Shown: positions 10,801 through 36,552 of the stretch, piece after piece
Layout: each line of letters opens with the position of its first letter
Numbering within the stretch: the first letter of the stretch is position 1
IMG/VR virus record: IMGVR_UViG_3300021356_000052
Location: 1-39,597 of that record
Direction: 5' to 3' (one strand)
Length of the DNA stretch: 39,597 bases
DNA from: a virus
Notes under the pieces: model-generated
Told to the model about the DNA's origin: nothing
The model's input: the letters and a program-made list of their open reading frames with translations, nothing else
Databases searched by the model: none
Translations under genes and position numbers: made by a program

Positions 10801-13800
10801 AGACTTCAATCAAATCATGTATAAGAAGAGTAAGTATGACGGTTCTTACTCAATTATTGGTGTTGCAGAAACAACTTTTGTTATCACTCTAACTGATATT
10901 CCAGAGTTTGATTCTTATCAGACAAATAATACAACATCGATGAAGTATACAACTACTTCATCTAATACATCTGGTCCAATCGGAACTATTAATATAATCT
11001 CTGAAGGTTCTGCATACAGATCTCTTCCTGCAATTTCAAGCGTCACTTCTACAAATGGTAGTGATGCTCTTCTATTCCCCAAATCAACTAAACTTGGTAA
11101 TCTGAAGCAATTCAGAATCGGGCAACAAATTATAGAATTTAATACTGATAAAACATTAAGTCCTAAAGCTGCTCTACCAGCAACTATTGAACTAAAAGAT
11201 AATTTAACTATTGATGAGATTGAAATCTTAGATGGAGGAAGTAACTATACTATTGCACCAGATCTAGTAATCGTTGATACACTAACTGGTCTAGAGCAAG
11301 ATGGTATACTTCTATGCGAAATCGGATCAAGTTCTATTGATAACGTAACTATCTTTGAACAACCAACTGGATTGACTTTCAATCCAAAAACTATATTTGC
11401 AGTCAATAATACTAACGGTGTTGGTATTGCAACAATGCAATCATCCTTGAGTGGAATTGTTACCTGCTTCTTAACTACACCTCTACTAGGATTTAGTACA
11501 AGTGTATTTGCTATCGGAGATGAAGTATTTGTTGAAGGTGTTACTAAAAATGGAACTGATGGTACAGGATTTAATTCGGATGATTATGGATATTCATATC
11601 TAACTGTTCTTTCATATTCAAACACCATTCCTGCTAAGGTAGAATATAGTGTTGCTGGTTTAACTACTAATCCAGGTCTCGCAGATACTACTCAGAGTTC
11701 CTTCGCTAATATGACGAAGAGATCTGATTTACCAGTATTCAGAGTAACTCAGAAGAAATCAGAATTTAGTATTGGTGAGAATATAAGTGTAAACGGAGAG
11801 AATACTGATCTATTCATCTCTTCTATACTGAAAGACTATATTAAAGTTACTGGTGTATTCCAATTAAAAGTTGGAGATGTAATTCGAGGTAACATTTCTG
11901 GTTCCAAAGGAACTGTATCTTCTCTCAATACAAGTGATGGTAGATTTACTGTAGATTATTCTGTAAGGTCTGATCAAGGTTGGAAGACTAATACTGGTGA
12001 ACTAAACAATGACATTCAAGTAACTCCAGATAACGACTACTATCAAAATCTCTCCTACTCTATTAAGAGTCCTATTCAATATAAGGATTCGATTGACTCT
12101 ATCAATCGTCTAGTACATACATCTGGTCTCAAGAATTTTGTAGAAACTGAACTAAGTTCTACAAGTTCTATCAGTGTAGGCAGTACTTCTCCCACAGCTC
12201 TCAACTTTATCGATCTAAGTTCGGATAATAGAGTTGATACCATCTATGGATTCGGTCTCAGTAGAGATACAGAAGTTTCTGCTCTAAATGCATTTACAAA
12301 TTCCTCAAGATTCATTGAACTTGGCAATATTAAACTTGTAGATAGTTTGATTTGCAGAACAAATAGAGTTCTTGAAATTGATGATGTTAGTAAGCAGTTT
12401 ACAAATAAAGAGAATGTAATTGATGAATTCATTGACCTTGATGAATACACCAAAGATATCGCAAGATTCCTCGTTCAAGTCAGAAGTACTGATGGACTAC
12501 AAACAGCAATCTATGAATTGATCATTATCTGGGATGAATTACAAGAAAACGTCCTTACTCTTAATAAGGCATATCTCTCCAGTACAGGAGTTGGTGTTAC
12601 TTATTCTGGTGCAGATTCTTCCGAGATTACAAATCTATGGGATGAAAGAGAGTTTGCAACTGTAACTGGTCATATTGATGTCTTTGATGTTCTTTCTGTA
12701 AGATTTACTCCTGAAGATGTCTTTAATATCGACTACGACATTAAGTTCATTAAAGATACTTTTAATAGCAATGCTGTTGGACTAGCATCGACTTCTATTG
12801 GATTCATTAAGAATCAATCTTCATATCGAATTGCAGGTACAGGAGGTACGGCGACACTATTCGAATATGATGCTACAGACTTTGATGCAGTTCATGTTCA
12901 AACACACATTTATGATGAAACCGACAATGTTCAGAACTTCCTGGAGATGTATCTGCATCATGATGGAACAGATACTTACATAACCGATTACTACTTTGAT
13001 AGCAATCCTTCGGAAGGTATTAGCGGAAATGATTTTACTAACTTTATACCTGAATTAAGCGGTGGAGTACTCTCACTCAAGTATGTAAATACTGGTTCAA
13101 ATGATATTGAAGTAAAAACTAATGCTGTTGGATTCGGAGCAACATCTAATGGAATTTCTACTCTAAGATTCCAGTCTACTGGTGTTCCTGATGGATCTGA
13201 AAGAAGTGCTTATTATGAATCAAATTATGCTGTAGGCACTGGAGTAACAGAAATCTTCAGAGGTTCTAAGCAACTATTCACTTCTGTTAAGAGTTTGGTT
13301 AGCGTCAATAATGGTTCTGACTTTGCCCTACATCAAGTTTATTCTTTAAACTCCGACGAAACTAATACATTCTCTACACAAGCTCCATTTATCTCTATTG
13401 GTAGCACAACTGGTATTGGAACCTTTGGTTCTGATTTTGATGGGTCAGACTTTATTGTTAAGTTCTTCCCCAATGCTGATGCTTCTGGAATTGTAACTGT
13501 AAAAGCATTTAATGAAGCACTTTATGAACTAGTTGACCTAGAAAATGAGTATGAAAATATTGATTACGGATTCATCAAGAAGCAAGAGATTGGAATTGCT
13601 CTCTATGATGCAGTTAACAGTCCAAGAATTAATAAGAATTCTTTTGAAATGGAATATCAAGGTATTCCAATCTTCAAAAAGACATTTAATCCAGCAGATA
13701 CAAATATCTTAGATCGTACAACTGGTATATTTACGATTGATAATCACTTCTTCTCTGATGGGGAAGAATTGATTTACAAAGCAGGTTCGACTGTTGTTGG

Positions 13801-16800
13801 AATTAATTCATCTTCTGTTGGTATTGGAGAGACTGCAGATTCTGTTGGTGTAGTTACAAATACACTACCATATAGAGTCTGGTGCGATAAAATTACTCCA
13901 AATACTTTTAGACTTTCCACAAGACCAGAATATGTAACTGCAGGAATCTATGTAACCTTTACCAACGTTGGTGAGGGTAATGCTCACTCTCTTGAGATGG
14001 TTAAGAAGAATGAGAAGACCATATTTGCTCTCGATGATCTAATTCAAGCACCTTTAGCATATACTCCTATTGTTTATGATCTCCAAGGTAATGGCGGTTC
14101 TATCAGTGCTGCATCAACAGTATTTTCTCTATCAGGTATTGCATCTGTCGTAAATGGAGACATCCTCCAGATTGAAGATGAATACATGAAAGTTGGTGGT
14201 GTTGGTTTAGGAACAACGTCTGTTGGACCAATTTCATCAGGAGACGTAAATCTGGTTGAAGTTGTAAGAGGTTTTGTTGGAACTGCTGCTACAGACCATA
14301 CTGAACCAACTACAATTAGAGTTTACAGAGGTTCTTACAATATTTCTGGAAACAGAGTATTCTTCACTGATCCTCCAAAAGGAAGCGGACTTGTAACCCT
14401 TGATGATTCTGGTCTACCAAGAACATTCTCCAAATTTAGTGGAAGAACATATCTAAGACAAAGTTATGAAAATAACCTTGTTTATGATGATATTTCTAGA
14501 CAATTTACTGGTATTGCACAAACGTTTGTAGTTCAAAACACTGGAGTTAATACTACTGGTATTGAAACTGGAAGCGGTCTAGTTCTGTTGAACGGTATCT
14601 TCCAAACGCCAACTACTAATAATAATGCAGGAAATAACTTCTCATACGGAGAGGTTGCAGGTGTTTCTAGTATTACATTTACTGGTATTACCTCAACTGA
14701 TGGTAGTCAGATAACTTCTATCTCCGATGTTAACCAGAATGGTTTCCCACGAGGAGGTTTGATTGTTTCTCTTGGTTCTACTAATGGTCTTGGTTTCGCT
14801 CCTTTAGTTGGAGCAGATATTCTTCCAACGGTTTCTGGTGGAGTAATTACTGGAGTAGTTGGAGTTCCAACATACGGTCAATCACTCGGTCTTGATACTT
14901 GCTCTTATAATAATGAGAGCGGAATCCTTGAAGTAACAACTGCCTCTGCACATAATTTGAAAGATCACAACCAGCAAGTTTGGTTGGAAGGTCTTGAGTT
15001 CTCCTGTGCTGCTCCTCATGCAGGAGTTACAACTACAATCTTCCCAGATGGAAGTCTTGGAAATGTATTTGCAATCAGCGGAATCGTTTCTACTACTACA
15101 TTCAACGTTAATGTTGGAACTAGCACTATTCCCCACACTTACATGGGTTCTGGTTCTGCATATCCATACTTCAGCAGACTCAATGTTGGATCTGGATATA
15201 ATGGACTTACGGGCATCGGAGTTAGTGTGTATGAAGCAAGTCACACTGGAGCAGCTGCAACAATTACTGCAGTTGTTGGTGCTGGCGGAACTTTAACCTT
15301 CACTGTTGAGGGAGGAGGAAGCGGTTACACTAATCCAGATATTCTTGTTGATGCCCCATCATATACAAACTTGGAAATTGAGGGAACATTCAGGAGAGGA
15401 ATCGGTTCTACAACTACTACTGGAGTAAATCTCCTAATGTCGGTAGAACTTGGACCAAACTCTCAGTCAATCTATGCAGATCGCTACGCAGATGCTGCTG
15501 CATTACTTGAAGACAACAGAACTTTCATTGCTGAGATGGCAGTTGGAAGAATGCTTGATGCATATCCTTCCTTCACTATTCCAACTGGAAATCAAGCATG
15601 TATCGATGATGCTGTTGATGTTGTTGAGGCGATTGCATACAACTTAAGGTTCGGTGGAAATGATGCAACCTATGATGCTGCAACATTGTATATCAGCGGA
15701 GCACACGTTGCTGGAGAAGAAGACGAATCGATTTACGTATTCAATGAAGTTGGTTATCTAGCAAATAATATTATTAATAACGTTGCTATTGCAAAATCTG
15801 GTTACACATCCGAAGATCAAGTATTTGATTTCAGCATTACTGCTGATCCTTTGACTGGATTCAATACAAGTCCAAGTTCTTGTGCGGATGTACAATCTTC
15901 AATTACATCTTTCGTAGGTATCGTAACGAATGCTATTGGACTTAGCACAATTCCTGGAAGCAGAACTATTGCTCCTGCATCTCTATATGAAGTTGCTAAA
16001 TTCAGTATTGATAGGCAGGGTTATGCATTTGAACCTGGAGATAAGTTCAAACCAATTGGTCTCGTTACCGCTCTTGGACTAACCTCTCCACTTGAAGAGT
16101 TTGAATTAGAAGTAACTGATGTTTATTATGATACATTCTCCTCTTGGCAATTCGGTCAACTGGACTTTATCGATCCAATTAAAGTTCTTCAGAATGGAAC
16201 AAGATCTGTATTCCCAATGTATTACAATGCGGAACTTGTAAGTTTTGAAAAAGATCCTCTAGATCAAGATTCTGCACTTATTGATATGGATTCTGTTCTA
16301 TTGGTATTCATCAATGGAGTTCTTCAAGAACCAAAATCTGCATATCAGTTTGATGGTGGTTCTTCAATCCAGTTTATTACTCCTCCAAAACCAGAAGATA
16401 ACGTTTCAATCTTCTTCTATCAGGGAACTAGAAATGTTGACGCAACTAACTTAGACATTAATGAAACAATTAAACCAGGAGACTCTGTTTTCCTTAATAG
16501 ATTCCCTGGAATTACAACATCTGTTGATCAAAGAGAAAAGAGAATTGTTTACTCAATTCCAAGTGCTCAAAGACTACAGACTAATGTCTATTCAGATATT
16601 GGTATTGATGAAGAGAACTTCAGACGTTTGGATTGGACTAAGCAGAAGAGAGACCTATTCGTAAATGGAGATTACATCTATAAGTCTAGAGATTCTCTTG
16701 AAGGTATGGTTTATCCTACTGCTAAGGTTATCGCTGATGTTAATCCTTCGGACACTGCAATATTTGTTGATAACGCACAATTCTTTAACTATGAAGAGAA

Positions 16801-17662
16801 TGAGTCTAGTGTTGTAACTCCATCTGTTGACGCATTCTTGACTGATGATATTACAGTTTCTCCTGCAGTGTTTACTGCATCAGTAACTTCTGCTGGTATT
16901 GTTGATGGAGTCACTATTGTAGATGGAGGTGTTGGATATGCCTCAACATTATCTTCAATAAACCTTGCATTCTCTGCTCCTAAGTTTATTGGTGTTGGTA
17001 TTGGAACTACCGCGACAGCAACAGCAACCATTACAAATGGTTCAGTTTCTAGCGTAACACTTATAAATCCTGGTCTTGGATATACCAATTCTCAGAATGT
17101 AGCAATTGCTCCTCAGGTAATTGCAGAGCAACCTAAAAATGATGACGAACTATTGACAGTAATTTCTGTTGTTCAAGGTAATACTGGAATCATTACTGGC
17201 ATCAAACCAGTTACTGGAATCGGAACAGACTTAGCACTTAAGTTCTACACTGATAATACCACAGATCTTCAGGCAGGATATTATATTCTTGTTACTGGAA
17301 CAAATGTTGGTAGCGGAGTTACTTCGGTCTTTACTCATGATGATGACATCATTGGAATTGGTACAGAATATCTGAATAATGTCTATAGAATTAATTCTAT
17401 TCCTGTTATTAATGAGATTGTTTGCAACATTGCATCAAATACTGTTACTGCTGGAATCGAAACTCTTGGAACTTCTGTTTACAATCCAAATGGATATTTC
17501 TCCTGGGGCAGACTTTCCAGTATAACTAGAGATAGTTCTAATCCTATCTCGATTGGCGTAACTGGAAGAACAGTTTCTGGTTTATCAACATATCCTATTC
17601 TTCAAAGAAAAGGTTATGGATTAAGAGATAATGGTGCTATTAGAAAAATCCTCCCAGATTAA
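4856..17662 (+). CDS. gp7: Giant baseplate wedge protein, gp7-like (4268 aa)
   Basis: Residues about 15-310 align with the C-terminal part of T4 gp7 (1032 aa): ARTFYQAKGTEESFKILYKV at about 197-216, followed by the LIGQTVYSS segment. T4's large N-terminal region is missing. A modular extension of nearly 4000 residues follows. Visible parts are: start-type modules with GFPQS..L.I.DEIITYTG (about 75-135, 325-370); HNF-type modules near 617, 857, 981, 1822 and 2964; GxGY beta repeats near 755, 953, 1042, 1132, 1173, 2049, 2125, 3443, 3485, 4022 and 4070; a YHYH-type domain at about 1205-1345; a helical domain at about 3530-3700; and a C-terminal block with VFINGVLQEP (about 3818) and NFRRLDWTKQKRD (about 3920). 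The single uninterrupted frame and the position between gp6 and gp8 support gp7. It probably forms the wedge's outer arm. The extension's function is unknown. Confidence 0.88.
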   Translation: MIQTGIESRVKVQDLIEGQLPEFILDESPKAVDFLKQYYISQEYQGGPTDLIDNLDQYLTLENLTPESIVGFTSLTSAAPSSDTTISVESTKGFPQSYGLLKIDDEIITYTGITTNTFTGCKRGFSGITTYSDISNPSNITFSTSSAENHDNYSPVQNLSSLFLKEFYKKLKYSVTPGLENTEFVSNVNVGNFIKEARTFYQAKGTEESFKILYKVLYGVTPKIVDLEQFLLKPSSAEYIRREVILVERISGDVNNLIGQTVYSSASPGTKAAVSEVEIVTRDNQTFYKIGLFIGYSDQDLIEGTFTVTANTKVLSPRVRTGSSVVTVDSTVGFPQSGKITTGLTTVTYTDKTSNQFLGCTVVDDLEPKTEVRSDETIFGYENGDLTKKVELKVYSIVSDILLSKDAGLALPNESIKVLHLGDLIDNPDNINDKTYKQKFANSWTYNTASTFEVSGINTSTRVYTLSSDLDKSSIKVDDTFEIINNVSKEVQLSDARVSSVDKANKQVTLSYTGFSTDPNIPHTIRRVAKKTSSDRVPLEYGDDTLTSDIQNVYSESGSDFMYVASNSLPSFSFRKNSNLKSIIVGTGITFIGAATTENGALQREVTDVDYSIISFPTAVPFLTGDAVVYQPETTSIIGLNTGETYYTKVLSDPKQIKLYPAPSFIDTDNYLKFTPLSLGVGGKHTFTIESKNDKNIQPQKLLRKFPLKEEIKQNNGEPHDQEMLGMLVNGVEIKSYKSPDKVFYGPLSKIDVLNPGTGYDVINPPQIVVADSPGAGTTALVRPVISGSVEKIFVDPQQRELENVVSVSIAGGNGSGAILKPITETTFKEINFDARLLSNFGGVGEVAETITFLSDHNFRDGEEIIYKTNGNSPLSIGTFFASNADQNRFLVNNTKYIAEFINDKTIRLYNSTSDFNAGINTIGFTTASNSGVHAFRTFDGKKTLKEIRVLEGGSGYQNRHLYVKPVGISTIENTVTFINHNFKEGDLVDYQTTGTAVSGLTTANQYYIFKVDDDTFRVADAGIGGTIKTNYNRNKFIHFDSVGSGYQIFKYPDIAVTVNVSYGSTNVGVITATPIVRGGIVDSYLYESGTAYGSSTINFEKKPSITIKNGKAASLYPVVLAGKVVRVDVRSRGSEYFSTPDVDVVVSGSTGVGAVLRPIILDGQIDSVVVINQGTGYVQEETSITITPAGRNANYSTNLSYLTVNDAERFGSEYLNPTFGKGLQYSNISYSRDLAAFEFNDDGTTHSPIIGWAYDGNPIYGPYGYNDPLDQNSGKRILKSGYILDAASVDSRPSGFTNGFFVEDYRFNESGDLDRHNGRFCKTPDFPNGTYAYFAGIATGGLFTPTFPYFIGDRFKSLYQGVDLGQDDGIDNNDLVRNTFPYRIKDEYASNDYLNESLQQNKQEAIITSTEKGTIDSIEIRTRGDNYKVGDLLNFDNSDTGGGGARATVSSVEGKSIVSIASSTLEYSESIITRESNDKVAIHIQPTHAFVVNDVVSISGLSTFLPNLTGLKTVGINTDTFNIYKDIPANASAGLVTDVYISNIPNSLSIGSTIGIGTELLSVLNIFPIPKIVRVKRGITGTAHTTSTSGFVYPNRIFVDAQTGYFNSSLNEKIYFNPHQSVGVGSTSGVGIAVTNTLGDVTKEINIPTRSIYLPNHPFLTGQTAILRKNGGGSNISVANTETETQFDILSSGSETVYTIKKGPDFIGIVTQIGLTTSSSGLFFFNNGSDNYEYSIEPTEDQVTCIVQKNDALVSVSTIHNLQPKDKINLSVIPDRSVGIGTSTSVIVKFNNDIQKIVIDPVGFTSESISIAENTITLTNHNFTTGEKVYYDSTDLITSGLETGVYYVHKIDKDRIKLCDTFDDTLASPPVVVSLASTGGASQELSAVNPKITPTRGNDLVFDLSDASLTGLEFKIYKDFEFNNEFVSIANTTTFSTAGISTVGVGTTASLTLKYSEQLQNPLFYNVERSGFISTADATVKDFNQIMYKKSKYDGSYSIIGVAETTFVITLTDIPEFDSYQTNNTTSMKYTTTSSNTSGPIGTINIISEGSAYRSLPAISSVTSTNGSDALLFPKSTKLGNLKQFRIGQQIIEFNTDKTLSPKAALPATIELKDNLTIDEIEILDGGSNYTIAPDLVIVDTLTGLEQDGILLCEIGSSSIDNVTIFEQPTGLTFNPKTIFAVNNTNGVGIATMQSSLSGIVTCFLTTPLLGFSTSVFAIGDEVFVEGVTKNGTDGTGFNSDDYGYSYLTVLSYSNTIPAKVEYSVAGLTTNPGLADTTQSSFANMTKRSDLPVFRVTQKKSEFSIGENISVNGENTDLFISSILKDYIKVTGVFQLKVGDVIRGNISGSKGTVSSLNTSDGRFTVDYSVRSDQGWKTNTGELNNDIQVTPDNDYYQNLSYSIKSPIQYKDSIDSINRLVHTSGLKNFVETELSSTSSISVGSTSPTALNFIDLSSDNRVDTIYGFGLSRDTEVSALNAFTNSSRFIELGNIKLVDSLICRTNRVLEIDDVSKQFTNKENVIDEFIDLDEYTKDIARFLVQVRSTDGLQTAIYELIIIWDELQENVLTLNKAYLSSTGVGVTYSGADSSEITNLWDEREFATVTGHIDVFDVLSVRFTPEDVFNIDYDIKFIKDTFNSNAVGLASTSIGFIKNQSSYRIAGTGGTATLFEYDATDFDAVHVQTHIYDETDNVQNFLEMYLHHDGTDTYITDYYFDSNPSEGISGNDFTNFIPELSGGVLSLKYVNTGSNDIEVKTNAVGFGATSNGISTLRFQSTGVPDGSERSAYYESNYAVGTGVTEIFRGSKQLFTSVKSLVSVNNGSDFALHQVYSLNSDETNTFSTQAPFISIGSTTGIGTFGSDFDGSDFIVKFFPNADASGIVTVKAFNEALYELVDLENEYENIDYGFIKKQEIGIALYDAVNSPRINKNSFEMEYQGIPIFKKTFNPADTNILDRTTGIFTIDNHFFSDGEELIYKAGSTVVGINSSSVGIGETADSVGVVTNTLPYRVWCDKITPNTFRLSTRPEYVTAGIYVTFTNVGEGNAHSLEMVKKNEKTIFALDDLIQAPLAYTPIVYDLQGNGGSISAASTVFSLSGIASVVNGDILQIEDEYMKVGGVGLGTTSVGPISSGDVNLVEVVRGFVGTAATDHTEPTTIRVYRGSYNISGNRVFFTDPPKGSGLVTLDDSGLPRTFSKFSGRTYLRQSYENNLVYDDISRQFTGIAQTFVVQNTGVNTTGIETGSGLVLLNGIFQTPTTNNNAGNNFSYGEVAGVSSITFTGITSTDGSQITSISDVNQNGFPRGGLIVSLGSTNGLGFAPLVGADILPTVSGGVITGVVGVPTYGQSLGLDTCSYNNESGILEVTTASAHNLKDHNQQVWLEGLEFSCAAPHAGVTTTIFPDGSLGNVFAISGIVSTTTFNVNVGTSTIPHTYMGSGSAYPYFSRLNVGSGYNGLTGIGVSVYEASHTGAAATITAVVGAGGTLTFTVEGGGSGYTNPDILVDAPSYTNLEIEGTFRRGIGSTTTTGVNLLMSVELGPNSQSIYADRYADAAALLEDNRTFIAEMAVGRMLDAYPSFTIPTGNQACIDDAVDVVEAIAYNLRFGGNDATYDAATLYISGAHVAGEEDESIYVFNEVGYLANNIINNVAIAKSGYTSEDQVFDFSITADPLTGFNTSPSSCADVQSSITSFVGIVTNAIGLSTIPGSRTIAPASLYEVAKFSIDRQGYAFEPGDKFKPIGLVTALGLTSPLEEFELEVTDVYYDTFSSWQFGQLDFIDPIKVLQNGTRSVFPMYYNAELVSFEKDPLDQDSALIDMDSVLLVFINGVLQEPKSAYQFDGGSSIQFITPPKPEDNVSIFFYQGTRNVDATNLDINETIKPGDSVFLNRFPGITTSVDQREKRIVYSIPSAQRLQTNVYSDIGIDEENFRRLDWTKQKRDLFVNGDYIYKSRDSLEGMVYPTAKVIADVNPSDTAIFVDNAQFFNYEENESSVVTPSVDAFLTDDITVSPAVFTASVTSAGIVDGVTIVDGGVGYASTLSSINLAFSAPKFIGVGIGTTATATATITNGSVSSVTLINPGLGYTNSQNVAIAPQVIAEQPKNDDELLTVISVVQGNTGIITGIKPVTGIGTDLALKFYTDNTTDLQAGYYILVTGTNVGSGVTSVFTHDDDIIGIGTEYLNNVYRINSIPVINEIVCNIASNTVTAGIETLGTSVYNPNGYFSWGRLSSITRDSSNPISIGVTGRTVSGLSTYPILQRKGYGLRDNGAIRKILPD
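8468..8892 (+). other. YHYH-type domain inside gp7
   Basis: Residues about 1205-1345 of the giant protein carry the marks of the YHYH family (PF14240): THSPIIGWAYDGNPIYGPYG at 1246-1265, and a closing block DRHNGRFCKTPDFPNGTYAY at 1315-1334. The family's first YHYH signature strand seems degenerate here. In bacteria the domain occurs in secreted or extracellular proteins of poorly known function. Its presence in a baseplate protein suggests an exposed domain. Confidence 0.75.
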
Positions 17663-27338: not shown

Positions 27339-29468
27339 ATGGCAGCCGCTGTAGTTCAGTTTAAAAGAGGTGCGTATGCTGGTTTGCCAGCCTTACAGGC
27401 AGGTGAACCAGGTTTTTCAACCGATAAGTACGATTTCTATATCGGTTTAGATAATACTATTTCGGGCAACAAGTTCTTCGGAAGTCAAAGGTATTGGCAA
27501 AGAGAAGACGGTATTGAGTCCGCATACTTAAATTTAGTAGATAGAGATGGATCTAATAAGATCGCTCTAAAAACTCCAAACGTATTATCTGGCGTTACCA
27601 CTTATGTTCTGCCAGCAACTCCTGTAGCTGGAGGTTTGCTACAGTCTGATGCTGACGGAAATCTTTCCTGGTCAAGTGCTCTTACCCAGGTCAACCTAAA
27701 CAGTCTATATGTTACTGGTCTATCAACATTCCAGTCTGCAATATACGTCTCAGACACTACTGATTCTGAGGACAAGGACACTGGTTCTGCAGTATTCAAT
27801 GGCGGTCTAGGTGTAGAATTATCAACCAATATTGGAAGAAACCTAAAAGTAGGTGGTATTGGTACATTCGTTGGTGCTCTAAGTGTAGACTCCACGACAG
27901 ATTCTAGTAGTCCAACAACGGGTGCTCTAGTTGTTGGCGGTGGCGTCGGATTATCAAGAAATCTATATGTAGGTGCTGGCGTTTCTGTCGTCGGAGTTTC
28001 TACATTCTCAGATACTACAAATACAACTGCAGTAGGAACAGGTGCAGTTGATATTAAAGGTGGTTTATCTGTTGCACAAAATGCATATGTTGGTGCTGCA
28101 TTAAGTGTATCTGGAGCAGCAACACTTCAAGGTGCTACAGCACTAAACGGTAATGTCAATCTCGGTAATGCTGAGACCGACATTGTTACTATTAATGCTG
28201 ATATTCAGGGAGATCTACTTCCTGAAACTGACGGATCATTTAATATTGGCGATAATACTGCTGGTAAGCAATGGTTGAATGGTAGTTTCTCAGGTATTAT
28301 CACTGCAACTACTGGTCTTCAAGGTGCCAACGTAAAAGTTGGTATGACATCTGCTAGAACTATTGATACTTCTAGCGGTTCTCTATTCCTTAGTGGTGCT
28401 GATGATAGAGTTACTGTTGATGGTACTCTAAGTGTTCTTGCCAACGAAAACGTAGAAGGAAATCTAGACGTAGCTGGAACAGGTCAGATTTCGAATGTTA
28501 ACATTGGCGTTAACAGCACGACTCAGATTGAGTCAACAGCAGGTAATCTAAAACTGAATTCTGCTACAAACACTATTGATATCGATTCCCAGACAAGCAT
28601 TACTGGAATTGCAACATTTAATACTGGACTGAAGGTTGCTACTGGTCAAGAAGGAGCAATCATTGGTAATATTGGTATCGGTACTGTTGATGACCAAACA
28701 ATCAGTACAGAAGCTGGAAATCTGGTTCTAAGATCTGGTCCTGCATCTTCTACAGTTAGAGTTGAAGATGACCTAGTTGTTACTGGAACTATTACTGGTT
28801 CGATTACTGGTTCTATCTCAACTGCAACCAGATCTCAAACTATTGACGTTTCTTCTGTTTCAGATACTGCTGACAGATATCTAATATTCTCTGAGGCATC
28901 AGCAACTGGAACTGGACAAACTGCATATGTTGCTCCAGATATCAAATATAATGCAGACGCAACAACTTTAACTGTACCAACTGCTCAAATTGGTGCTATT
29001 AAGGCATCTGATGGCAGCGATGCTCTAACGATCTCTAACACGACTGGTAACGTAAGTTTCGCAAGTAGTATTACTGTTACAGGCGATATCACAGTTCTCG
29101 GTACTCAGACAATCGTCAATACTGAGGCTCTGAAGGTCGAAGATCCTGTCATTGAACTTGGTCTAGTAAACAGCGGTGGAAATCTTGTTCCTCCAACTGT
29201 AGACCAAAACTATGACATTGGTCTGATGTTGCACTATTATACAACATCCGCCAAGGTTGCTGCAGTTTACTGGGATGAGTCAGTAAACAGAGTTGCAATC
29301 GCATCTTCTGTAACCGAGTCAGCAAATGTCATGACTGAAGTTGCATACGCTGATGTTGAATTTGGCGGACTTTGGATCAACGATGCTGCTGGACAATCTC
29401 AGGTAATCAGACATAACGGAACTGCAAGAATCCTTGAGAACATCACCGTTGATGGGGGTGCCTTCTGA
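27339..29468 (+). CDS. Tail fibre protein with tandem repeats (709 aa)
   Basis: The N-terminus (VVQFKRGAYAGLPALQAGEP and then FYIGLDN) is the usual attachment segment of phage fibres, in which QF-x-RG, an L..GE stretch and IG..D mark a small beta domain. Residues about 137-264 hold three related repeats built around a GG-x-G(V/L) turn and NLYVGAG-type strands (period about 40-46). After them come long beta-helix-like stretches rich in Thr, Ser, Gly and Ala with heptad-free trimer-like composition. The C-terminal domain has DPVIELGLVNSGGNLVPP and ends in VIRHNGTARILENITVDGG, a block I recall from marine phage fibres. No intramolecular chaperone is visible. It probably contacts the host surface. 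Confidence 0.82.
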   Translation: MAAAVVQFKRGAYAGLPALQAGEPGFSTDKYDFYIGLDNTISGNKFFGSQRYWQREDGIESAYLNLVDRDGSNKIALKTPNVLSGVTTYVLPATPVAGGLLQSDADGNLSWSSALTQVNLNSLYVTGLSTFQSAIYVSDTTDSEDKDTGSAVFNGGLGVELSTNIGRNLKVGGIGTFVGALSVDSTTDSSSPTTGALVVGGGVGLSRNLYVGAGVSVVGVSTFSDTTNTTAVGTGAVDIKGGLSVAQNAYVGAALSVSGAATLQGATALNGNVNLGNAETDIVTINADIQGDLLPETDGSFNIGDNTAGKQWLNGSFSGIITATTGLQGANVKVGMTSARTIDTSSGSLFLSGADDRVTVDGTLSVLANENVEGNLDVAGTGQISNVNIGVNSTTQIESTAGNLKLNSATNTIDIDSQTSITGIATFNTGLKVATGQEGAIIGNIGIGTVDDQTISTEAGNLVLRSGPASSTVRVEDDLVVTGTITGSITGSISTATRSQTIDVSSVSDTADRYLIFSEASATGTGQTAYVAPDIKYNADATTLTVPTAQIGAIKASDGSDALTISNTTGNVSFASSITVTGDITVLGTQTIVNTEALKVEDPVIELGLVNSGGNLVPPTVDQNYDIGLMLHYYTTSAKVAAVYWDESVNRVAIASSVTESANVMTEVAYADVEFGGLWINDAAGQSQVIRHNGTARILENITVDGGAF
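27748..28133 (+). repeat. Three in-frame repeats in the tail fibre
   Basis: Units begin near 27748 (SDTTDSED), 27886 (VDSTTDSSS) and 28009 (SDTTNTTA). Each continues with a TG-A-x-x-GG-x-G(V/L) turn, an N(L/A)YVG or NLKVG strand and a closing short strand. The repeat is at protein level; the DNA has diverged. Tandem strands of this kind usually set fibre shaft length. Confidence 0.7.
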
Positions 29469-29471
29469 TCC

Positions 29472-29479
29472 TATAAATA
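29472..29479 (+). promoter_or_regulatory. T4-type late promoter for the neck operon
   Basis: TATAAATA (context CCTATAAATAGG) is an exact late consensus match four bases after the fibre stop and 28 nt before the coiled-coil gene. It heads the run of coupled genes through gp13, gp14, gp15 and gp16. Confidence 0.75.
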
Positions 29480-29507
29480 GGGTTACTACTTAGATAAGAT
29501 TTAGATT

Positions 29508-29888
29508 ATGTCATCTGAAGTTGATTATCAGATTCTGCTGGGTACTTACCAGCAGAAATCTTCTGAATTGCTTAGTCAGACAATCGCATTAGAGGCAAGA
29601 GTAAGGTCATCGAATCATCAGATCGAGGTCCTTAACAAGCAGGTAAATGATTTGATTGCTGAGTTAGAGAGACACAAGTCTATTATTGCTGAACTAAAAA
29701 CGGCAGAATTTAATAGATTGGAAGAAGAAAAGGAGAAGCAAAAACTCCTTGAAGAAGAAAGGGAGCAGGACAATTTACACTTTGGTTTGGTATCTGCACC
29801 AGAACCAAAACCTAAGGTAGCAAGGAAAAAGAAAATAAATAGTGCTGAGACTAATTTATTAACTCAGCCAGCTGAGGGAGAGGTTTAA
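29508..29888 (+). CDS. Coiled-coil protein upstream of gp13
   Basis: The product has 126 residues. A long helix spans about residues 8-90 (LLGTYQQKSSELLSQTIALE through LNKQVNDLIAELERHKSI to a Glu/Lys-rich stretch EEEKEKQKLLEEEREQ), clearly a coiled coil. A basic KPKVARKKKIN segment follows. There is no membrane segment. It is the first gene after a late promoter and its stop overlaps the gp13 start by 1 nt. It is probably a virion or assembly protein for tail or neck; short coiled-coil genes are seen here in related phages as far as I recall. Confidence 0.72.
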   Translation: MSSEVDYQILLGTYQQKSSELLSQTIALEARVRSSNHQIEVLNKQVNDLIAELERHKSIIAELKTAEFNRLEEEKEKQKLLEEEREQDNLHFGLVSAPEPKPKVARKKKINSAETNLLTQPAEGEV

Positions 29889-30730
29889 TGGCAAAACCAT
29901 CAACACGCCAGGAATTAATCGATTATTGTTTTAGAAGATTAGGCGCTCCTGTGCTGGAAATTAATGTTGATGATGAACAGGTTGATGATCTGGTAGATGA
30001 TGCTATTCAATTTTATAACGAACGTCATTTTGACGGGGTTGAAAGAATGTATCTTAAGTATGAACTTACCCAAGATGATATTGATAGAGGAAAGGCAAAA
30101 AATACTACTGGAGTTGGAATTGTAACCACAACTGGAACCGCATCGATTCCTGGTTACGGTTCGACTACTTTTAATTTTTACGAAAACTCTAATTATATTC
30201 AAGTTCCAGATTCTGTAATTGGAATCGAAAAAGTATTTAAGTTTGATACAAGCACTATCTCTGGAGGTATGTTCAGTATCAAATATCAAATATTTTTGAA
30301 TGATATGTATAGATTCAACTCTGTTGAGTTGATGCAATATAGTATGACAAAAACTTATTTGGAAGATATTGACTTCTTACTAACAACTGATAAGCAAATA
30401 AGATTTAATAAGAGACAAAATAGAATGTACCTTGATATTGATTGGGGTGCTCAAACTGCAGGAAACTTCTTAGTTATTGATTGTTATAGAGCATTAGATC
30501 CTGCAGACTTTGCAAAAGTATATAATGATTCATTCGTCAAAAAATATCTTACTTCATTGATAAAGAGACAATGGGGACAGAATTTGATTAAATTTAGGGG
30601 TGTAAAACTTCCTGGCGGAATTGAAATGAATGGAAGAGAAATTTATCAGGATGCTGAAAATGAGCTAAAAGAATTAAAGCAGATCATGGCTCTAGAGCAT
30701 GAGTTACCACCCTACGACTTTATTGGATAA
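29888..30730 (+). CDS. gp13: Neck protein gp13
   Basis: The product has 280 residues, near the 309 of T4 gp13. The opening TRQELIDYCFRRLGAPVLEI and NVDDEQVDDLVDDAIQFYNE (residues about 5-45), then RHFDGVERMYLKYEL, is the conserved core of the family, which forms the head-tail connector ring beneath the portal. Further conserved segments are IGIEKVFKFD, YQIFLNDMYRF and the C-terminal LIKRQWGQNLIKFRGVKLPG. The strong GAGGGAGAGG ribosome-binding region and overlap with both neighbours indicate tightly coupled expression with gp14. Identification rests on recalled sequence and gene order. Confidence 0.93.
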   Translation: MAKPSTRQELIDYCFRRLGAPVLEINVDDEQVDDLVDDAIQFYNERHFDGVERMYLKYELTQDDIDRGKAKNTTGVGIVTTTGTASIPGYGSTTFNFYENSNYIQVPDSVIGIEKVFKFDTSTISGGMFSIKYQIFLNDMYRFNSVELMQYSMTKTYLEDIDFLLTTDKQIRFNKRQNRMYLDIDWGAQTAGNFLVIDCYRALDPADFAKVYNDSFVKKYLTSLIKRQWGQNLIKFRGVKLPGGIEMNGREIYQDAENELKELKQIMALEHELPPYDFIG

Positions 30731-33700
30731 TGGCACTTAATCCATTCTTTCTCCACGGATCCTCTTCGGAACAGCGACTTGTTCAAGACTTGATTAATGA
30801 ACAGTTGAGAATGTATGGTATTGAGGTCGTATATATTCCAAGAAAAATAGTAAACAGGGACGAAATCCTCGCTGAGGTGCAGTCTTCCAAGTTTGATAAT
30901 GCATACATCATAGAGGCGTATTTAAACACCTATGAGGGGCATACTGGGGGCGGAGACATCCTTAGTAAGTTCGGTATGCAACTGAAAGATGAGATTAATC
31001 TCGTTATTTCAAGAGAAAGGTATGAAGAATATATTGGTGCTTTCATTCAGGATGAAGATCCATATGAAATAGAGGTTGCATTAAGACCTAGAGAAGGAGA
31101 TATAATTTATTTCCCTCTTAGTGAAAAGTTTTTTGAAGTTAAGTTTGTAGAACACGAAAAACCATTCTATCAATTAGGAAGGGGTTATACTTATGAACTT
31201 AATTGTGAACTCTTCGAATATGAAAATGAAGTTCTCGATGTTGGTATACCTGAGGTTGATAGAGCACTTGAAAATGTTGGTGAGATTATAACACTCAAGA
31301 TGGTTGGTTATGGTCAGACTGCAGCAATTGGTGCAGATATCAATACTGGATATGTAAGACAGGTTTATATTAATAATGATGGTTACAATTATACCTCGAC
31401 TCCAACAGTAACCTTTGAAGATGCCCCATCATACGGAAGATCTGCAAAAGGTGTTGCAATTACAACTTCTATTGCAGGAGTTAGATCTTTAAAAGAAATT
31501 ATTTTAATAGATGCTGGTTATGGTTATAGACATACACCGACTTTAACAATTAGTGGAGGAGGTGGAGTAGGTGCAGCAGCTACCTGTTCCATTGAACTGT
31601 ACAGAAAAGGTGTTTCTAGAGGAGTTATTATTAACAGAGGAGAAGGATATACAGAAATACCTTCAGTAACCTTCAGTGGTCCTACCTTTACTGGTGCAGC
31701 AGGAACTACAGTTATTATCAATAATGCTGTTGATAGGGTATCCATGACTGAGGGTGGAACAAATTATTCCACAAAACTGGCAATCGGAGTTACGTTCAGT
31801 TCACCAAATCCAGTTGGATTTGTAACTGGTGTAATAAGTGCTGTTGCAGCAAATGACCAATTATCAACAGTATCAATTACTAATGCTGGAATTGGACATA
31901 GTATTCCTCCAACTTTGACATTTAGTGCTCCAACAGGAGCAGCAGCAACTGCTACAGCAACAGCAGTTGGAGGATCTCTCTACGGAGAGCAAGTTTCTAG
32001 CGTTTCAATTGCATCTTCTGGAAGATATTATTTAAGTGCTCCAACAGTAACGTTTGATAATCCGACAGGAATAGCATCGACTGCTACTGCAAATACAACA
32101 TTATCGTCCTCTGGCGGCATATCTACGTTCTCATACACACTACAAAGTGGAGGTAGATATTACCTAGCACCTCCAACGCTAACTATTGATTTCTTATCAC
32201 TATCTTCGGGGTATATTGCAGATTCTTATTTTGGAACTAATGCATGGAAAGTCGTTAATGCGGATTTAGATAGAAATATTACTCATCCAGGAACCGCTTC
32301 AACTACTGCAATTGGTTACAGTGGTTCTATTCAACTCGCAGCAAAGATTCCAAGTTCTTTACCAGGTCTTTCAACATTTATTTCATTCAATAAATTATCT
32401 AACGGGAGTAAGTCTACTCAAGTAGATCTTAGAGTCAATGATGACGGATATATTGAAGTTGGTCTTGGTACAGATAAAGTAGGAGTTAATACGGATAATC
32501 TAACCTACGACTATACTGGATTGGATGTTAGAGATGATCAATGGCATTGGATCTATATCAATTCAACAATACTTCCAAACTTTACTCAACGTTTAGAATT
32601 ACAAGTAGATGGCGGTTTACCTGTAGATACATTCTTTGCTGCTGGTGGAGGAGAAATTCAAATAGTTACTGGCGCAGACGTAACTCCACCAGTAATTGAA
32701 AATGATTTAAACAGCGGAATTATTGTTGACGGTATTTTTGGAACAGTTGATGCTGGAACTGCATCTTCTACTGCACCAGGATCAATGCCAACTGCGGATT
32801 CCAATACAATATTATTTGATGATTTTGAAAATGATGCAATCGGAAATCTAAACTCGATTAGTATTGGTTGTTCAATTTCAAACGGTGTTGTAACTTCAAT
32901 TGATAATTCATCAACAACATTATCTGGCATTATAACTTCTATTGTATCTGCAGTTATTGACCCTCCAATTGGAACACCATCAAACTTTGTTGCAACTGGA
33001 GTTGCAAGTGTAACTGCTGGTATAGTTACTGATATTTCTCTAGATTATGCTGGATATGGTTATGTAACTTCTCCAGGAGTTACTCTTTCAGCACCAACAG
33101 GAGTAGCAACTCAATTTACTGCTACTGCACATGGTAAAATAAACGGAGATGGTAAACTCAGCGAGATTGAAATTACAGATAGAGGACTTGGATATATTTC
33201 TAATCCAACTGTTAGTATATCTGCGCCATTGGGACAGACACCAGAAGGTTATGGAAATGTTGGTGTTGCAGGAACTATTATATCCGTAACATTAACTAAG
33301 ACTGGTGTTGGTTATACAGAACCATCGATTGTATCCATTTCCAATACTGTAACTGATAGAGATTTTGCTACTGGATTCACAACAGCAACTGGAACAGTTA
33401 CCTTAAATGCGGACGATAATAGAATCGATCATATTAAGATTATTGATCCAGGATCGGGTTATCTAACTCCTCCTACAGTAACTGTTGGAGATGCTCCAAT
33501 TGCTGCTGGTATTGGCACATATTGGTTCAACGAAGTTATTACTGGTTCAAAATCTGGTGCAACAGCAAGAGTTAAGCGTTGGGATGGTGAAGAAGGAATT
33601 CTACAAATCTCTATTGAAAATGGCACTTTCCTAGATGGAGAGCGAGTTGTTGGATCCTCTTCGTCCGCTATATATGTTGTCGATTACTACATAAACAAGA

Positions 33701-33822
33701 GAGATGTACCTAAGATTGCATCTGTCGAAAATATTGACGACTATGAACAAAATGATGAAATAGAATTTGAAGCCGATCAAATTTTAGACTTTTCTGAGAA
33801 AAATCCCTTTGGAAATTACTAA
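30730..33822 (+). CDS. gp14: Neck protein gp14 with giant surface insertion (1030 aa)
   Basis: T4 gp14 has 256 residues; this one has 1030. The N-terminal core (residues 1-175) is plainly gp14: LINEQLRMYGIEVVYIPRKI, AYIIEAYLNTYEGH, SKFGMQLKDEINLVISRERY and the block RPREGDIIYFPLSEKFFEVK ending in PFYQLGRG. The last 40 residues (DEIEFEADQILDFSEKNPFG) resemble the T4 C-terminus. Between them lies an insertion of about 780 residues: seven GxGY-type beta repeats (about 215-480), a laminin-G/concanavalin-like domain (about 498-648, with DDQWHWIYI and LELQVDGG), four more repeats (about 770-925) and one SGA-type module (ITGSKSGATARVKRWDGEEG). gp14 sits at the connector, so the insertion probably projects as a collar or whisker-like decoration. 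That role is inference. Confidence 0.9.
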   Translation: MALNPFFLHGSSSEQRLVQDLINEQLRMYGIEVVYIPRKIVNRDEILAEVQSSKFDNAYIIEAYLNTYEGHTGGGDILSKFGMQLKDEINLVISRERYEEYIGAFIQDEDPYEIEVALRPREGDIIYFPLSEKFFEVKFVEHEKPFYQLGRGYTYELNCELFEYENEVLDVGIPEVDRALENVGEIITLKMVGYGQTAAIGADINTGYVRQVYINNDGYNYTSTPTVTFEDAPSYGRSAKGVAITTSIAGVRSLKEIILIDAGYGYRHTPTLTISGGGGVGAAATCSIELYRKGVSRGVIINRGEGYTEIPSVTFSGPTFTGAAGTTVIINNAVDRVSMTEGGTNYSTKLAIGVTFSSPNPVGFVTGVISAVAANDQLSTVSITNAGIGHSIPPTLTFSAPTGAAATATATAVGGSLYGEQVSSVSIASSGRYYLSAPTVTFDNPTGIASTATANTTLSSSGGISTFSYTLQSGGRYYLAPPTLTIDFLSLSSGYIADSYFGTNAWKVVNADLDRNITHPGTASTTAIGYSGSIQLAAKIPSSLPGLSTFISFNKLSNGSKSTQVDLRVNDDGYIEVGLGTDKVGVNTDNLTYDYTGLDVRDDQWHWIYINSTILPNFTQRLELQVDGGLPVDTFFAAGGGEIQIVTGADVTPPVIENDLNSGIIVDGIFGTVDAGTASSTAPGSMPTADSNTILFDDFENDAIGNLNSISIGCSISNGVVTSIDNSSTTLSGIITSIVSAVIDPPIGTPSNFVATGVASVTAGIVTDISLDYAGYGYVTSPGVTLSAPTGVATQFTATAHGKINGDGKLSEIEITDRGLGYISNPTVSISAPLGQTPEGYGNVGVAGTIISVTLTKTGVGYTEPSIVSISNTVTDRDFATGFTTATGTVTLNADDNRIDHIKIIDPGSGYLTPPTVTVGDAPIAAGIGTYWFNEVITGSKSGATARVKRWDGEEGILQISIENGTFLDGERVVGSSSSAIYVVDYYINKRDVPKIASVENIDDYEQNDEIEFEADQILDFSEKNPFGNY
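31363..33516 (+). repeat. Eleven GxGY beta repeats in gp14, split by a LamG-like domain
   Basis: Repeat marks begin near 31373 (NDGYNYTSTPTVTF), 31507 (DAGYGYRHTPTLTI), 31630 (NRGEGYTEIPSVTF), 31750, 31881, 32010, 32140, and then after the LamG-like stretch at 32221-32670 near 33045, 33179, 33298 and 33445 (DPGSGYLTPPTVTV). Each unit is about 40-45 residues: G-x-G-Y, P-x-V-T-(F/I/L), then an Ala/Gly-rich turn and a valine-rich strand. Protein-level similarity is high while the DNA has diverged. Confidence 0.8.
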
Positions 33823-34670
33823 TGTTAGGAAGCCATTACTACCACGAAATTATTCGTAAAACTATCATATCTTTTGGAACGTTATTCAATAATGTTTCAA
33901 TCAAGCACTATGATAAAAATGATCAGAACGTCATCGATGAGATGAGAGTTCCTCTGGCATATGCGCCAAGGCAAAAATTCTTAGCAAGATTAACTCAGCA
34001 ATCTGAGTTGAATAAGTCGGTTGCAATTACATTACCAAGAATGTCATTTGAGATGACATCTCTCCAATACGATCCGTCTAGAAAAACGGGCGTTACTCAA
34101 ACTTTTAAGGCATTGGATGGGGATAATAATCTCAAAAAGGTTTTCATGCCCGTTCCTTACAATATTGGTTTTGAACTGAATGTTTATTGTAAATTAAACG
34201 ATGATGCTTTGCAAATTGTTGAACAGATTTTACCTTATTTCCAACCAGCATTGAATGTCACTATTGATCTAGTCAGTTCTATTGGGGAGAAGAGAGACAC
34301 TCCCATTGTCCTTAACAGTGTTTCTTTTGTAGATGACTATGAAGGAGATTTCACTACAAGAAGAGCACTAATTTATACCCTTTCATTTACTGCTAAAACT
34401 TATCTGTTCGGTAAGGTTAGCGATAATTCTGATGGTCTCATCAGGAAGGTACAGGTTGATACTTATACAAATACTGATCCTGTCACTGCTAAGAGAGAGA
34501 TGAGATATACAGTAACTCCTAAGGCGAAAGAAGATAAGAATAATGATGGCGTAATTAATACTGTCGATGACGCATTACTAGGTCCTCAAGATGACTTTGG
34601 ATTCTCTGAAGGATTTGAATTCTTCACGGATGGTAGAAGTTACAATATTGGACAAGACTCTGACCTTTGA
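33822..34670 (+). CDS. gp15: Tail terminator / sheath stabiliser gp15
   Basis: The product has 282 residues (T4 gp15 has 272). The alignment with T4 is clear: SHYYHEIIRKTIISFGTLFN, NVSIKHYDK, VPLAYAPRQKFLARL, ITLPRMSFEM, the motif QIVEQILPYFQP (identical in T4), and RRALIYTLSFTAKTYLFG followed by DGLIRKVQVD. gp15 forms the hexamer that caps the contracted or extended tail tube and joins it to the gp13/gp14 neck. The C-terminal part holds a dockerin- or EF-hand-like loop DKNNDGVINTVD (residues 238-249), suggesting bound calcium. It starts with a 1-nt overlap to gp14. Confidence 0.95.
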   Translation: MLGSHYYHEIIRKTIISFGTLFNNVSIKHYDKNDQNVIDEMRVPLAYAPRQKFLARLTQQSELNKSVAITLPRMSFEMTSLQYDPSRKTGVTQTFKALDGDNNLKKVFMPVPYNIGFELNVYCKLNDDALQIVEQILPYFQPALNVTIDLVSSIGEKRDTPIVLNSVSFVDDYEGDFTTRRALIYTLSFTAKTYLFGKVSDNSDGLIRKVQVDTYTNTDPVTAKREMRYTVTPKAKEDKNNDGVINTVDDALLGPQDDFGFSEGFEFFTDGRSYNIGQDSDL

Positions 34671-35112: not shown

Positions 35113-36552
35113 ATGTCTTCTGTGAATGAAGAAGGACTGCGAAAGTGGTTTGGAAAATCAAAATCTAAAGACGGCAAATCTGGTTGGGTTGATGTCGTGG
35201 ACGGAGATGCATGTGCTAGAGAGAAGGGGGAAACCGCTACTCCAAAGTGCGTATCATCTGCAAAGCGTGCATCAATGACTAAAAAGGAGAGACTTGCTGC
35301 ACAAGCAAGAAAACGTCGCAAAGATCCTGGTCAACCAGATAAATCTGGAGCGGCAAAACCCACATACGTCAAAACTGATTACACACCTGATGGCGACATG
35401 GATCTTCAAGAAGTAAAAGATAAACCAGGCAAAGGCAGCGGAACAAAAGATGCCTGCTACCACAAGGTCAAATCGCGCTATAAAGTTTGGCCAAGTGCTT
35501 ATGCTTCTGGAGCTCTAGTAAAGTGTCGCAAAGTTGGTGCTTCAAACTGGGGAAACAGCACTAACGAAGAAAAAGATCACGAAGTTTCAATGGCTCAATC
35601 TCAGTTAAAAAAATCTGAGAAGAACATCGCTAAACTAAAAAAAGCTTTAGGTAAGAAAGAGAAAAATATTCCTGCTTGGGTTCAAGCAAAAATTACAGAT
35701 ACTGAACACAATACTGATGCCGCATCTGGGTATATGGATGAGGCAAAAAAATGTTGGAAAGGTTATGAAAAGAAAGGGACTCAGAAATTGTTTGGTAAAA
35801 CTTACAATCGCTGCGTGAAGAAAGAGTCTGTTTCTGTTGAAGATGCGAATGGAAATTCGTTTATAGAATTCATTGACTTAATTAAACCTGAACCCCTCAA
35901 ACCATCTAAACCTGTTATACAGGTTCAAGAAGGTAACCCAAGCATGGATATTGACACCAATGCTCATAGAAAACTCCAGAAGATGAATAAGATTAGAAAT
36001 CTTATGGATAAGGGCACTGGCGGTGAAAAAGGTGCGGCAGGTGCAGCACTACAAAGAATGGGAGGTGGCATCAACTTACCTTTAGCAAAAAAAGATAGCG
36101 AGAAGAAACTTCAGTTAGCGCACTACGAAGTATCGAACTGGAGATCAGAACTTGCAGAACAGTCACCAAACTGGCCCCCAGAAGGACCAGGAGAAAACAA
36201 TTCAAGAGTTGAAGAAGTTAATGTTTCTGATGCAACAGCATCGAGCGAAGAGACTGGAAATCCCAACTCACGACCAATCTTTGATCGAGTAATGGAAGAT
36301 TGGCAAAAAGTAAATAAAGGCGACAAAACTGACGGTATGAGTCAGAAAGCAGTTGATGCATACCGTAAAGAAAATCCTGGTTCCAAATTAAAAACTGCTG
36401 TAACTGGAGATCCAGAACCAGGTAGTAAGGATGCTAAGCGTCGTAAGTCTTTCTGCTCTCGTTCAGAGGGACAAAAAGATATGCACAATATTGATTGCAC
36501 TAAAACACCTGATAAGGCAATTTGTAAAGCCCGTCGTCGTTGGAAGTGCTGA
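35113..36552 (+). CDS. Lys/Cys-rich mosaic protein, possible head-internal protein
   Basis: The 479-residue basic protein is a chain of short motifs that I recall as separate pieces in cyanophage and large-virus proteins. They are: an N-terminal LRKWFGKSKSKDGKSGWVDV with DACAREKGE and AKRASMTKKERLAAQARKRR; GSGTKDACYHKVKSRYKVW with PSAYASGALVKCRKVGA (about 109-142); IPAWVQAKITDTEHNTDAAS (about 182-201); CWKGYEKKGTQKLFGKTYNR (about 214-233); and a C-terminal RRKSFCSRSEGQKDMH (about 438-453) ending in KARRRWKC, similar to the DUF6321-type motif. Paired cysteines in each module hint at metal or disulphide sites. The high charge fits DNA binding. It lies between gp16 and the expected gp17. Function is unknown; motif names need a domain search. 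Confidence 0.75.
   Translation: MSSVNEEGLRKWFGKSKSKDGKSGWVDVVDGDACAREKGETATPKCVSSAKRASMTKKERLAAQARKRRKDPGQPDKSGAAKPTYVKTDYTPDGDMDLQEVKDKPGKGSGTKDACYHKVKSRYKVWPSAYASGALVKCRKVGASNWGNSTNEEKDHEVSMAQSQLKKSEKNIAKLKKALGKKEKNIPAWVQAKITDTEHNTDAASGYMDEAKKCWKGYEKKGTQKLFGKTYNRCVKKESVSVEDANGNSFIEFIDLIKPEPLKPSKPVIQVQEGNPSMDIDTNAHRKLQKMNKIRNLMDKGTGGEKGAAGAALQRMGGGINLPLAKKDSEKKLQLAHYEVSNWRSELAEQSPNWPPEGPGENNSRVEEVNVSDATASSEETGNPNSRPIFDRVMEDWQKVNKGDKTDGMSQKAVDAYRKENPGSKLKTAVTGDPEPGSKDAKRRKSFCSRSEGQKDMHNIDCTKTPDKAICKARRRWKC

Follow-up and report, generated by a model that had tools for sequence, protein, structure and literature searches.

The window analysed here covers positions 1 to 39,597 of IMG/VR virus record IMGVR_UViG_3300021356_000052, and the gene in question is a long open reading frame (ORF) for gp14, a head closure (Hc2) neck protein, whose insertion probably carries a laminin G/concanavalin A (LamG/ConA)-like domain. 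By sequence comparison the identity of this ORF as gp14 is firm: the Pfam family PF11649 (T4_neck-protein) matches residues 3-181 (E 8.2e-31, 107.8 bits against a cut-off of 25), PHROG 460 (Hc2) matches the ORF with an E value of 1e-136, and the only PDB sequence matches are T4 gp14 structures (9mkb/9lu4, E 6e-25). The genes for gp13, gp14 and gp15 form a tightly packed string, with one-base overlaps on both flanks of gp14 (at 30730 and 33822). An earlier note on this DNA, made from the letters alone, had described a gp14 divided by a long insertion, and its layout proved right, with the T4-like core and the C-terminal motif kept at opposite ends of the protein. The features are as follows.

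29888 to 30730, plus strand: gp13 (adaptor Ad2), 280 amino acids, from PHROG
30730 to 33822, plus strand: gp14 with insertion, 1030 amino acids, from Pfam, PHROG and the T4 gp14 structures
30730 to 31263, plus strand: T4 gp14-like core, residues 1-178, from PF11649 and T4 gp14 9mkb
31285 to 32199, plus strand: first repeat block, residues 186-490, seven GxGY-type beta repeats (217, 262, 303, 341, 386, 430 and 473)
32200 to 32844, plus strand: predicted LamG/ConA-like domain, residues 491-705, from predicted structure, with the motif WHWIYI...LQVDGG...GIIVDGIF
32845 to 33504, plus strand: second repeat block, residues 706-925, four GxGY repeats (774, 818, 858 and 907) after a beta-rich linker
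33505 to 33693, plus strand: small beta domain (NEVITGSKSGATARVKRWDGEEGILQISIENGTFLDGERVVGSS), residues 926-988, common to the repeat-free gp14 of S-CAM1
33712 to 33822, plus strand: conserved C-terminal motif (EADQILDFSEKNPFGNY), residues 995-1030 and stop, from a profile of marine gp14 C-termini
33822 to 34670, plus strand: gp15, tail sheath stabiliser (PF16724, E 2.5e-89)

In the T4 virion, gp14 forms a hexamer under gp13, and its residues 178-256 contact gp15 at the top of the tail (PMC12270204). The profile of marine gp14 C-termini scored 16.1 bits against the insertion-free gp14 of phiN3 (best of 200 shuffles 2.9), gave a weak 7.0 bits against residues 213-229 of T4 gp14 (best of 500 shuffles 4.8) and no score against gp14 of Salmonella phage SFP10. 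Judged by this profile, the C-terminal motif of the window gp14 is the equivalent of the T4 tail that contacts gp15, and gp15 is its predicted partner. T4 gp14 (PDB 9mkb, 9lu4-9lu7) has the core, the gp13-gp14-gp15 order and the C-terminal tail in common with the window, but with 256 amino acids it is without repeats or a LamG-like domain. A chimera or assembly error was ruled out by 26 full-length copies of the architecture on separate IMG/VR contigs.

Comparison of gp14 across phages indicates that the insertion point is constant, after residue ~178, where T4 gp14 leaves its beta-barrel; on the T4 template this site would lie between the barrel and the gp15-gripping tail, and it may face outward. 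Proteins without an insertion measure 213 amino acids in SFP10, 217 in the Sinorhizobium phage phiN3 and 256 in T4, and the two shorter ones show that heads can be closed without the arm. Cyanophage gp14s range from 292 amino acids in S-CAM1, which has the small beta domain and no GxGY repeat, through 390 (S-RIM8/S-RIM2), 463 (S-SRM01), 470 (P-SSM2) and 483 (Bellamy) to 656-657 (S-PRM1/S-CAM9) and 762-763 (S-SSM7/S-SSM6a/Sf-FS3), and those of the window clade have 1021-1109. In Kyanoviridae (P-SSM2 470, S-SRM01 463, S-CAM9 657 amino acids), the GxGY insertion occupies the same site as in the window, but it has fewer repeats and no detected LamG-like domain. No repeat insertion was found in gp14 of T4 or the other non-cyanophages examined. 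The remark in the earlier note that related marine phages may carry such insertions was borne out in cyanophages, with examples of 390-657 amino acids that have no LamG-like domain; the repeat insertion is an ordinary cyanophage feature, and what is unusual, though not unique, is the LamG-like domain.

Exactly eleven repeat motifs flank the middle domain of the window gp14, seven before it and four after it. The count of eleven GxGY repeats in the earlier note was correct, but the literal GxGY occurs in only six of them; nine score well with a repeat hidden Markov model, the degenerate exceptions being the two near 341 and 473. AlphaFold2 models the first-block repeats as long-short-long strand triplets, with a predicted local distance difference test (pLDDT) score of 80-87 over residues of about 200-300, and a sequence search of PDB found no solved relatives of the repeats. 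A few gp14-like GxGY repeats are also present in a single ORF of 4268 amino acids at 4856-17662 of the window, which matches a PHROG baseplate wedge family (phrog_2885) and contains a YHYH domain; GxGY repeats seem to be common to several virion proteins, including gp14 and this baseplate-wedge-type protein.

Neither Pfam nor the sequences in PDB gave a match to the middle domain (searched as residues 477-712), and its assignment comes from structure prediction. Two AlphaFold2 models were compared with known folds: one of the full protein, built on 22 relatives (mean pLDDT 58, low confidence), and one of the domain only, built on 17 relatives and less confident (mean pLDDT 46.5). In the full model, residues 491-705 matched neurexin, agrin, laminin LG, pentraxin and sialidase lectin domains in VIA-align, with Z of 11.0-11.9 and root mean square deviation (rmsd) mostly of 2.8-3.8, the best match being neurexin 2r1d (Z 11.9, rmsd 2.8, 139 residues aligned). 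The best matches of the domain-only model were agrin, PAPP-A and pentraxin-type LamG folds (Z 8.6-10.4), and it also resembled viral models labelled concanavalin A-like. The LNS/pentraxin matches from the two runs, which used different alignments, extend over about 140-175 residues. The domain also has the motifs W-H-x-I-x-I, L-x-V-D-G and I-V-D-x-I in an order that we take to be typical of LamG_3 domains. A LamG/ConA-like fold of residues 491-705 is therefore likely from these predicted structures. The earlier note had placed a lectin-like domain at 498-648; the predicted models do match LamG, LNS and pentraxin folds, and the matched span is wider, at about 491-705. Base composition gave no signal of foreign origin for the LamG segment (GC 0.375 versus 0.372 for the window). 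In locus L026 (5001-8327, also in L126-L129), a GxGY-type segment of ~80 amino acids is nested inside the LamG-like domain, and gp14 there has 1109 amino acids.

A LamG domain is also found in a second lineage of gp14, which includes the cultured Synechococcus phages S-SSM7, S-SSM6a and Sf-FS3 (Lipsvirus group). Here it lies at residues 291-480 and, as in the window, between repeat blocks, but unlike the window domain it is recognised by Pfam: Laminin_G_3 matches all 12 aligned members, with 31.2 bits for Sf-FS3 against a cut-off of 27.6 and 26.6, just below the cut-off, for full-length S-SSM7. The two domains could not be aligned, hhalign found nothing between them, and they were treated as separate. 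The window-type domain was detected at 35 IMG/VR loci, always in gp14 (26 full length and 9 cut by a contig edge). For the S-SSM7 type (type B), 123 IMG/VR stretches matched, of which 80 were examined; in 79 the ORF has gp14 ends or runs off a contig edge, and the remaining one keeps the gp14 C-terminus and has no N-terminal motif. Both IMG/VR scans gave gp14 copies only and no LamG donor outside gp14, as scans with degenerate DNA patterns that would miss distant donors, and tblastn of LamG in named phages gave only chance matches. In a tree of the gp14 core, the window-type and S-SSM7-type proteins fall in separate, well-supported clades, and the LamG-free S-CAM9 and S-PRM1 adjoin the S-SSM7 kind at a join where long branches meet. 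Because the clades are separate and the two domains have no profile similarity, LamG was probably gained twice in gp14, which is the simplest account of these sequences; a single gain followed by losses and deep divergence is a possible alternative.

The segments of gp14 evolve at different rates. When the window is compared with its relatives, the core comes out as the best-conserved segment, with 99-100% amino acid identity at dS of about 0.4, and between the window and locus L024 the identity is 84% in the core, 71-75% in the repeats and 50% in LamG; at larger distances within the window clade, LamG is the fastest-evolving segment of gp14 and the core the slowest. Between close relatives of the window, dN/dS of LamG is about 0.1, indicating that the domain is held under purifying selection. 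Fast change under such constraint is the pattern that would be expected of an exposed functional module.

Head closure proteins are usually seen as internal plumbing. In the window phage, the gp14 core and C-terminal tail would perform standard head closure, with the DNA channel sealed below gp13 and gp15 docked, and at residue ~178 the protein carries an arm, made up of eleven beta repeats and, in their midst, the predicted LamG/ConA-like domain. If the hexamer of T4 is conserved, as we infer by analogy together with the outward projection of the arms, six arms of ~80 kDa each would project as a collar around the head-tail joint. The LamG-like domain would then be an exposed, replaceable binding module that may bind a ligand, most likely either polysaccharide of cell surfaces or the environment, to which it would give weak accessory adhesion, or the virion's own fibres, which it would hold. 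We place first, at roughly an even chance, the reading that gp14 presents an exposed repeat arm with a LamG-like accessory binding module at the head-tail joint; structural reinforcement ranks second among the roles and a whisker-like function third. The further proposal that six gp14-borne LamG arms form an adhesive neck collar at a distance from baseplate and fibres, and that phages with no fibritin system acquired it at least twice, is doubtful in our estimate.

Three observations weigh against an accessory binding module. The confidence of both structural models is low. Among S-SSM7-type gp14s, LamG is often more conserved than the flanking repeats (92-95% versus 65-76% in two relatives), a pattern unlike that of a receptor arms race, and there is no uniform sign of such a race in the sequences of both LamG lineages. 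The closest functional parallel comes from Anabaena phage A-1(L), whose neck fibres (gp80-gp82) resemble the window arm as a neck appendage with a carbohydrate-binding-type module, but are separate proteins on a 15-mer adaptor; the carbohydrate-binding module of gp80 at the fibre tip, the only tested neck-fibre module of this kind that we found, showed no host binding (PMC10966104). Host surface glycans, the target proposed in the earlier note, are a conjectural ligand of the window domain.

Two of these observations also favour a purely structural insertion, in which the repeats and LamG-like domain would wrap the neck and sheath top (gp15, capsid vertex) without a ligand, LamG serving as a spacer: the conservation of type-B LamG resembles that of a structural part, and the A-1(L) module does not bind its host. 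GxGY repeats in LamG-free gp14s and in the giant baseplate-wedge-type ORF point the same way. Such a role is possible but on balance improbable, and it leaves unexplained both why a single protein would have taken up a lectin-type fold twice independently, as is probable, and why LamG is the fastest-changing part of gp14 in the window clade. We consider it unlikely that residues 491-705 are some other beta-sandwich in the repeat array, unrelated to LamG, to which AlphaFold gave a LamG shape because its alignment was shallow; the missing Pfam and PDB sequence matches, the empty profile comparison with type-B LamG and the low pLDDT would fit this, but two runs with different alignments both led to LNS/pentraxin folds, and the motif order is the one presumed for LamG_3 domains.

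The relation to fibritin was considered separately, as the earlier note had suggested that the LamG insertion replaces it. The whiskers and collar of T4 fibritin (gpwac) are neck projections, as the window arms would be, but fibritin is a separate coiled-coil protein, no homologue of which was detected here, and it docks on domain III of gp13 (residues ~190-239) and not on gp14 (PMC12270204). Over most of this domain, a gap of ~40 residues is seen in the window gp13 and in four further gp13s of cyanophage type. Consistent with the earlier remark that no wac gene is visible, a search for Fibritin_C (PF07921), run without a T4-like positive control, came up empty in five complete cyanophage genomes, in five related contigs and in the window itself; the control search of 14 named genomes contained no T4-like positive, which leaves the sensitivity unproven. 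Cyanomyoviruses have been reported to be without wac, with whiskers in one isolate as an unpublished observation (PMC2984593). In cyanophages with short gp14 insertions and no LamG, wac was likewise not detected. The absence of fibritin is therefore general to cyanophages and does not track the LamG insertion, which cannot be a general fibritin replacement. That the arms act as T4 whiskers do, holding the long tail fibres or sensing conditions with gp14 in place of gp13, would agree with the undetected Fibritin_C, the shortened gp13 domain III and the earlier report on wac, but is the least probable account and quite unlikely, since LamG is not required where wac is absent, there is no homology to fibritin, and the sensitivity of the search is unproven.

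Whether the arm binds weakly, as we favour, or reinforces the neck, the gp14 insertion point appears tolerant: most of the cyanophages examined have repeat arms there, and two lineages have lectin-fold domains. This singles out the neck as a place at which these abundant marine phages may present binding functions. A full-text literature search found no paper on a LamG domain in a phage neck protein; a paper on pelagimyophages refers in general terms to structural proteins with concanavalin A domains and does not name gp14. As S-SSM7 and Sf-FS3 are cultured on Synechococcus, the idea of binding at the neck is directly testable. A cyanobacterial host is also likely for the window phage: its gp15 is 64-72% identical to those of marine single-cell viruses and of Synechococcus and Prochlorococcus phages, and TerL of one window-type contig (105 kb) is 70% identical to that of S-SSM7. 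The host marker psbA was not found in window-type contigs, which as fragments of 43-105 kb are uninformative on this point.

Several neighbouring genes were also observed. Upstream of gp13, at 27339-29888 of the window, a protein of 709 amino acids with Mtd_N (major-tropism-determinant N-terminal domain) is followed by a charged, coiled-coil-like ORF of 126 amino acids, an order conserved in all window-type contigs that reach this region. Downstream of gp16, where cyanophages hold variable inserts before gp17, lies an ORF of 479 amino acids (35113-36552), only ~117 of which are matched in more distant window-type contigs. The annotation of S-SRM01 places an HNH ORF between gp14 and gp15 (L002:7430-7957), and the psbA match of this phage is in three pieces with stops, a pattern expected from an intron.

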